A stretch of 47,527 nt of DNA. Source: Frankiales bacterium. Lineage in GTDB: Bacteria; Actinomycetota; Actinomycetes; JAFAQI01. The notes beneath the pieces were generated by a model. It ran no database searches. It had not been told where the DNA came from and saw only the letters and a list, made by a program, of their open reading frames with translations. The DNA lies in contig JAICXJ010000023.1 of NCBI GenBank assembly GCA_025980465.1, positions 1 to 47,527 of the forward strand. Reading direction: 5' to 3'. Position 1 is the stretch's first letter; every line of letters starts with the position of its first letter. The position numbers and the translations under genes are program-made. Of the stretch, positions 44,782 to 45,887 are shown in pieces.

Positions 44782-44789
44782 CCCGGACG

Positions 44790-44848
44790 GCGAGCCGCGC
44801 GAAGTGCGCGAATCTGGGCCCGCCATCCGCGCGCTACGTGCAACTCGG
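44790..44848 (+). repeat. 59-bp palindromic direct repeat, left copy
   Basis: This 59-bp unit and the one at 45816-45874 align without gaps at about 45 of 59 positions. The outer parts match best: GCGAG at the start, GCGCGAAGTGCGCGAAT inside and CTCGG at the end. Within the unit, 44792-44804 and 44834-44846 are partly complementary, so the copy can fold on itself. It lies between the membrane protein gene and the DUF559 gene. Confidence 0.75.
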
Positions 44849-44929
44849 TGTCCACAGCCTCAGAGTGGCTGGTCGCGCCGTCTGTGGACAGCGCGTGATG
44901 GGGCGCCCGCCACCGGCACGCTCCGAGGG

Positions 44930-45811
44930 GTGGCCACCGCCCGGGTCCCCGCTGCGCTTCGCGACCGACCGTTCACCGCTGAGCAGGCGGCGGCGGCCGG
45001 GGTCTCGCGGTCGGCACTGCGCAGCAGCGTCTGGCGCAAGCTGCTGCGCAATGTGTGGGTTCATTGCGAGGTCCCCGATAGTCGCGAGCTCCGGTTGGCC
45101 GCGATCAAGCTGGTGCTCGGTCCGTATGCCTTCATCTGTGGCCCGACCGCAGCCTGGGTCTACGGAATTGACGTGCAGGATCCTCGTGGCGCGCTGATCT
45201 GGGTCGGCTACCGAGGGCCGACCCGGCCGCGGCAACGGGCCGGCACCACCGTTCAACAGGTCGGTGCGAGGGATGAAGAGCTGGTCGTCGTCGATGGCGT
45301 TGCGATGACGACGCCGCTTCGGACCGCGTTCGACTGCGCTCGCTGGTTGTCGGTCATCGAAGGCGTGGTGGTCGCGGACGCGCTCGCTCACATGAATGCG
45401 ATCAGGCTCGCCGACCTTGCTGAGCTGATCAGTACGAACCGAGGCGGTCGAGGAATCCGAACCGCCGATGAGGTGATCGGTCTCGCCGACGCCGGCAGCG
45501 AATCGCCGATGGAGAGCCGCGTTCGGGTGCTGCTCGTACGAGGCGGCCTGCCGCGACCCGAGACCCAGGTCGACATCACCGATCCGCAGGGGACCTTTGT
45601 CGCCCGCGCCGACCTGGCCTACCGCCTGGCCCGACTAGCAGTCGAGTACGACGGGTCCTGGCACTTCGGCCAGCGTCGCCACGATGACCGGCGGCGCGAC
45701 GCGATGCGTGAGGCAGGTTGGACGGTGATCGTCGTCAGCGCTGATGACTACTACCGACACCCGGCGGACATCCTCAGGCAAGTCCGTGCCGCACTTGCCA
45801 AGGCGGTCTGA
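44930..45811 (+). CDS. DUF559 (Vsr-like endonuclease fold) protein with AbiEi-like N-terminus
   Basis: 293 residues from GTG 44930; the earlier frame to 44804 overlaps the repeat. The N-terminal part (RDRPFTAEQAAAAGVSRSALRSSVWRKLLRNVWVH) is the winged helix seen in AbiEi-type antitoxin domains. The C-terminal DUF559 domain has ESRVRVLLVRGGLPRPETQVDI, ARADLAYR and LAVEYDGSWHF, giving an E-D-ExD set of the PD-(D/E)XK type, then RRRDAMREAGWTVIVVSADD. A DNA-cleaving or DNA-repair role is plausible but unproven; no toxin gene is adjacent. The gene is bracketed by two 59-bp palindromic direct repeats, which suggests a mobile or repeat-associated unit. Confidence 0.8.
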   Translation: MATARVPAALRDRPFTAEQAAAAGVSRSALRSSVWRKLLRNVWVHCEVPDSRELRLAAIKLVLGPYAFICGPTAAWVYGIDVQDPRGALIWVGYRGPTRPRQRAGTTVQQVGARDEELVVVDGVAMTTPLRTAFDCARWLSVIEGVVVADALAHMNAIRLADLAELISTNRGGRGIRTADEVIGLADAGSESPMESRVRVLLVRGGLPRPETQVDITDPQGTFVARADLAYRLARLAVEYDGSWHFGQRRHDDRRRDAMREAGWTVIVVSADDYYRHPADILRQVRAALAKAV

Positions 45812-45815
45812 CCCG

Positions 45816-45874
45816 GCGAGTTGCGCGAAGTGCGCGAATGAACGGCCGCGTTCCGCGCTCTTTGCGCAGCTCGG
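45816..45874 (+). repeat. 59-bp palindromic direct repeat, right copy
   Basis: Same element as the copy at 44790-44848, starting five bases after the DUF559 stop. Here the internal palindrome is stronger: GAGTTGCGCGAAG (45818-45830) with CTTTGCGCAGCTC (45860-45872), 11 of 13 positions complementary. Copy to copy distance is 1026 bp, exactly bracketing the DUF559 gene. Confidence 0.75.
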
Positions 45875-45887
45875 CGGGGAGAGTGGG

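Follow-up and report, generated by a model that had tools for sequence, protein, structure and literature searches.

The window, by which we mean the whole 47,527-nucleotide stretch of DNA analysed here, probably carries one member of a family of selfish units arranged as palindrome, AbiEi/Vsr-like nuclease gene and palindrome, in which the nuclease is inferred to bind, cleave and mobilise them. The bracketed layout recurs across many actinobacteria with lineage-specific repeats, some of them scattered through their genomes, so that these small units resemble mobile elements and seem to form a family not described before. By comparing sequences we demonstrate the layout, the cognate relation between protein and palindrome, dispersed solo copies, presence/absence polymorphism and boundaries near the palindrome edges. 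Binding, cleavage and nuclease-driven movement of the palindromes are inferred.

The longest repeat in the window is a gap-free direct repeat of 61 bp, 77% identical between its copies, both of which are imperfect palindromes (Table 1). The original prediction of two gap-free repeats of about 59 bp around the gene was thus real, and the repeat occupies only two places in the genome. Scanning the 3.45-Mb genome with GCGCGAAGTGCGCGAAT, allowing up to 2 mismatches, recovered the two bracketing copies alone (reversed-pattern control, 1), and blastn of the whole genome with a 70-bp query found nothing else above noise. Neither search revealed a dispersed copy of the window's own palindrome. The window cassette is a low-copy case, whose sole copies are its two bracketing palindromes. 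Exact matches to the 16-mer GCGCGAAGTGCGCGAA in other genomes (198 relatives) had no homologue nearby and were not palindrome-like, and were taken as chance. Each copy had been said to fold on itself. This held for the right copy (z -5.9 against shuffles, as single-stranded DNA), whereas the left copy adopts the same hairpin shape yet folds no better than shuffles.

Table 1. Features of the repeat-bracketed cassette, in window positions.
Feature	Position	Strand	Basis and remarks
Upstream palindromic repeat copy, 61 bp	44788..44848	none	Family D1; the genome's only other copy besides the downstream one; hairpin z -0.75
AbiEi-DUF559 nuclease gene, 293 aa	44930..45811	+	Pfam, PADLOC, homologue start; alternative start GTG 44804 gives 335 aa
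N-terminal AbiEi-like domain with winged helix, residues 1-187	44930..45490	+	AlphaFold2 model; matches to AbiEi 6y8q and Rv2827c 1zel
C-terminal Vsr/I-Bth0305I-like PD-(D/E)XK nuclease domain	45491..45808	+	Structure matches, conserved residues
Downstream palindromic repeat copy	45814..45876 (direct repeat to 45874)	none	3-5 bp past stop; folds 5.9 sd below shuffles

The repeats had also been said to bracket the gene exactly. On the right they do, since the stop codon lies at 45809-45811 and the repeat follows it within 3-5 bases. On the left the copy overlaps the start of the mechanical open reading frame, as GTG 44804 falls inside it. Homologues align only from about residue 40-47 of that frame, so the true start is more likely GTG 44930, which would place the left copy entirely upstream of the gene.

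Both domains foreseen for the protein, a Vsr-like PD-(D/E)XK fold of the DUF559 type and an AbiEi-like N-terminus, were confirmed. Pfam matches include DUF559 (2.3e-6, above its cut-off), AbiEi_1 (2.7e-4) and MTES_1575 (4e-7, under that family's curated cut-off), and the PADLOC AbiEi model matches at 1.5e-10. No HUH family is among the Pfam matches, and the two domains match the AbiEi and the Vsr/I-Bth0305I fold, respectively. An AlphaFold2 model of the 293-aa protein (pLDDT 94.9) has two domains. Structure comparison of this model aligned residues 2-187 with the AbiEi antitoxin 6y8q (Z 11.0) and Rv2827c 1zel (Z 7.4), and residues 190-293 with the homing endonuclease I-Bth0305I (3r3p, Z 12.1), 3hrl (Z 11.7) and Vsr (1cw0, Z 10.4). 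Among 47 homologues E195 and R199 are invariant and D228, G242, H245, D252 and R255 are at least 90% conserved. The protein thus meets the criteria for a DUF559/Vsr-like PD-(D/E)XK nuclease, in fold and in catalytic residues.

We examined bracketing at 107 homologous loci from actinobacterial relatives. Each was scored by the best local match of its 300-bp upstream flank to its 290-bp downstream flank, and a locus was called bracketed at a flank-pair score of at least 36. Matching repeats bracket 80 of the 107 loci (75%). Flank pairs that were mismatched reach this score in 0.9% of cases, and of 200 generic genes in the same genomes only 1 does (0.5%). Likewise, 63 of 83 clusters at 60% protein identity are bracketed. 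The window itself scores 42-45, above all 200 generic genes (maximum 38). The elements are mostly imperfect palindromes of 55-65 bp (median length 64 bp), with a median of 4 bp from the stop codon to the downstream copy and 77 bp from the end of the upstream copy to the start codon. A named-genome set, which partly overlaps the 107 loci, has brackets at 31 of 73 loci, where mismatched pairs give 0.7%; in the Chloroflexota/Dormibacterota part of that set the count is 11 of 34. No bracket is detectable within 300 bp for a quarter of the homologues, and for 58% in the named-genome set. The proposed small, REP-like, repeat-bracketed nuclease unit is a family-wide layout that stands against its controls.

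Some arms have a different form. Four arm types (L071, L077, L118 and L149) are inverted arrays, not one palindrome; at L149, L118, L141 and L077 tandem arrays with units of ~20-40 bp, inverted between sides, flank the cassette. In Dormibacterota/Chloroflexi MAGs the units that bracket homologues (L341, L361, L362, L375, L393 and L394) are short and highly palindromic, for example CGTTTGTATACAAACG and CGGATAGTCCGGACTATCCG. A CRISPR-like or tandem-repeat reading of the elements was rejected because most of them are single ~60-bp palindromes. A phage origin was likewise rejected, as no homologue occurs in 50,697 phage records; plasmid matches number only 5 and are weak.

Do protein and palindrome belong together? 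Among 79 bracketed loci, 20 of the 25 pairs that come from different genomes and whose proteins are at least 60% identical share a similar element. Of the 47 pairs of paralogues within one genome whose identity is below 50%, none does. In a Mantel test of protein against palindrome, 0 of 500 permutations reached the observed correlation. The closest match to the window's element belongs to a homologue whose protein is 52% identical (L083). Furthermore, a paralogue in the window's own genome (L006, contig C11) has another palindrome at its two ends, AAACGATCATGAG...CTCATGATCGTTT, and two ~50%-identical orthologues of L006 carry an altered version, in which AAACGATCATGAG becomes AAACGATCATGGG or CGGTGATCATGAC. 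Together these comparisons are strong evidence for a cognate link, with the repeat following the protein lineage and not the genome. Similarity between elements agreed more closely with the middle and nuclease parts of the protein than with the winged helix, so it is not settled which domain recognises the palindrome.

The original prediction called for a search for the unit in this genome and its relatives, and would have been refuted had only two copies existed and relatives lacked them. Half of this came about: there are only two copies here, found at their gene, but in relatives the gene there is flanked by a version of its own. The palindromes of L006 and of a second genus, g43, are also scattered gene-free. 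For L006 we counted 33 arm matches in the window's genome (reversed-pattern control, 0) and ~17 fixed-length copies, most without a gene nearby; this palindrome is almost missing from 11 family relatives. Genus g43, which is probably Micromonospora, has two types of cassette-bracketing palindrome, type A (GTTGATCATGGAG) and type T (GTTGATCTTGGAG). Their arms occur 24-279 times per genome (control 0), compared with 0-1 in sister genera, at fixed spacings of 48 and 59 bp, and whole palindromes number from tens to >100 per genome. REP-like dispersal is thus seen for L006 and in g43, while the window's palindrome has only 2 copies. Most dispersed copies lie near gene 3' ends, 18 of them between convergent genes and 10 between tandem ones, with 1 in a divergent gap. 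In a 72-bp type, stem positions 15-20, adjoining the conserved arms, mostly pair more than shuffles through two-sided changes, with kinship among the copies uncontrolled. A different dispersed repeat of ~81 bp in g43 (L224:7990-8070) has many matches of 84-98% identity across the listed genomes.

Individual sites in g43 differ between species. At one locus a solo palindrome is present in 1 of 9 species and a second one in 5 of 9, and several others show a clean gap. A solo palindrome (L224:10202-10262) lies within a predicted ORF of one species, and relatives have no palindrome at that spot. A whole cassette occupies one site in four species and is absent from the rest; among the non-carriers, G198 has a cleanly empty site, whereas the remaining ones have other DNA on the left and regain the right flank ~20 bp beyond the palindrome. 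Near the cassette-free site another palindrome family, TTCGTCACCTGATC...GATCAGGTGACGAA, was seen (L293, L296 and L297), complete in G068 and G173 but only partial in G137. In seven pairs of related g43 cassettes at different sites, homology begins and ends at the outer edges of the palindromes, or no more than a few tens of bases away, and the DNA beyond is unrelated. Two copies in one genome (L100/L101) are among these cassettes, and the boundaries define a unit of ~1.1-1.3 kb. A defined unit at different sites, as expected of an insertion sequence, is thus found in g43, to whose cassettes the comparison was confined.

Site polymorphism and unit boundaries, as read from these alignments, fit mobility. 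The suggestion of a mobile unit gains support from them and from the dispersed lone copies; binding, nicking or moving of the palindromes by the protein has not been shown. No target-site duplication could be resolved in the g43 pairs, whose flanks are too diverged, and no strain-level insertion was seen, since the close genome pairs compared held no informative insertion. For the window cassette no orthologous site could be compared, since no homologue in a relative was seen to have the window's flanking genes nearby. Some absences could reflect loss by recombination between the two repeats. The window's genome also holds two decayed-looking paralogues of the window gene, one with an apparent frameshift (G000 C65:11492-12299; L004, L005) and one with an in-frame stop and a fragment (G000 C22:189-526; L007, L008), which are consistent with turnover of such cassettes.

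Could the palindromes simply be operators? The AbiEi-type domain would then bind the upstream copy and repress its own gene, and downstream and dispersed copies would be regulatory or terminator-like, without mobility. The AbiEi protein of S. agalactiae, whose fold the N-terminal domain shares, represses its own synthesis and binds a long inverted repeat immediately ahead of its operon, TGTTGCTTTTA-N27-TAAAAGCAACA, the arms of which can be extended to 23 bp (PMC3985639). These palindromes have the same architecture, and the position of most dispersed copies at gene 3' ends also suits a regulatory role. Autoregulation does not explain, however, the matching copy right behind the stop codon in 75% of loci, the >100 copies per genome in some species, presence/absence at orthologous sites or cassette homology that ends near palindrome edges, and the conserved nuclease residues would stay unexplained. 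Unlike the antitoxin, the window protein is fused to a nuclease and no AbiEii partner was recognised nearby, and the units add a downstream palindrome and dispersed copies. The operator reading accounts for the upstream copy but has no answer for the downstream copy, the dispersed ones or the boundaries of the unit, and we consider it unlikely.

A homing endonuclease, which spreads its gene by cutting gene-free sites that are then repaired by copying, would leave the palindromes as remnants or as hotspots that serve as recombination arms. The closest nuclease fold is indeed that of a homing endonuclease, and the cassette is present or absent at one orthologous site. Yet similar cassettes sit at unrelated sites, a whole palindrome and not a half-site stands on each side, palindromes spread without the gene, and the phage records hold no homologue. 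Compared with I-Bth0305I, Vsr and DUF559 endonucleases, which share the C-terminal nuclease fold, the units have no intron context and have an extra DNA-binding domain and bracketing palindromes. We find homing quite improbable. A Vsr/AbiE-like restriction or anti-phage nuclease, with palindromes that mark self DNA or are incidental, is suggested by the match of PADLOC AbiEi models to 44 of 47 homologues and by a Caulobacter Vsr-like protein with a DUF559 domain, which provokes a DNA-damage response when the solitary cytosine methylase is missing (PMC12907096). Against this, no AbiEii or nucleotidyltransferase partner was recognised among adjacent ORFs (the neighbours were not all scanned against family libraries), no methylase was noticed among neighbouring ORFs (no systematic search was made), and cognate sequence-specific palindromes at both gene ends are foreign to those systems; such a role seems very remote.

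The best reading remains a selfish unit of the REPtron kind that relies on a PD-(D/E)XK nuclease and not on an HUH transposase, with binding, cutting and transposition inferred. The nuclease would recognise the conserved arms of its own palindrome, probably via its AbiEi-type DNA-binding part, and cut at or near the hairpin or cruciform. The palindrome alone would be a MITE/REPIN-like passenger that is copied or moved to new sites, and the whole ~1.1-kb unit would likewise be copied or moved, mostly to 3'-intergenic positions. REPtrons, too, join a chromosomal nuclease gene (RAYT, TnpA_REP) to cognate palindromes beside it, with co-evolution of the pair, and their REP/REPIN populations are genome-wide palindromes whose conserved ends keep a fixed spacing, while the inner part varies and forms a hairpin (PMC3116915, PMC8266576). 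Of the defining features of a REPtron, cognate palindromes flanking the gene are present and an HUH (Y1) transposase-type protein is not. The enzyme is instead of an unrelated AbiEi-Vsr fold, the units lack GTAG-tagged short REPs, and the AbiEi-Vsr cassette stands at several sites, whereas tnpA_REP has been reported mostly as single-copy, without evidence of mobility. Insertion sequences with MITEs also pair a gene-bearing unit with gene-less dispersed repeats and have palindromic or inverted-repeat ends. They differ in that each end here is a full palindrome, no DDE/HUH transposase domain is present and target-site duplication is unresolved.

The layout had been thought undescribed for this protein family, and in the open-access full-text literature we found no previous account of palindromes that bracket DUF559/AbiEi genes. 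To our knowledge REP-type repeats are known with one enzyme class only, HUH TnpA_REP. We lean, with some reserve, towards a new prokaryotic mobile-element superfamily, in which an AbiEi-Vsr nuclease mobilises cognate ~60-bp hairpin palindromes, each lineage with its own, spread over Actinomycetota and Dormibacterota/Chloroflexota, so that REP-like populations would have arisen independently of HUH transposases. If true, a second, unrelated nuclease class with the same arrangement would make palindromic repeat populations a general outcome. It would also account for the dispersed palindromes of at least one large-genome actinobacterial genus, provide specificity studies with many enzymes naturally matched to a DNA hairpin, and give annotators reason to keep such genes out of their tallies of antitoxins and defence genes. 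Many actinobacterial proteins whose sole annotation is now "DUF559" or "AbiEi family antitoxin" would thereby gain a testable function.
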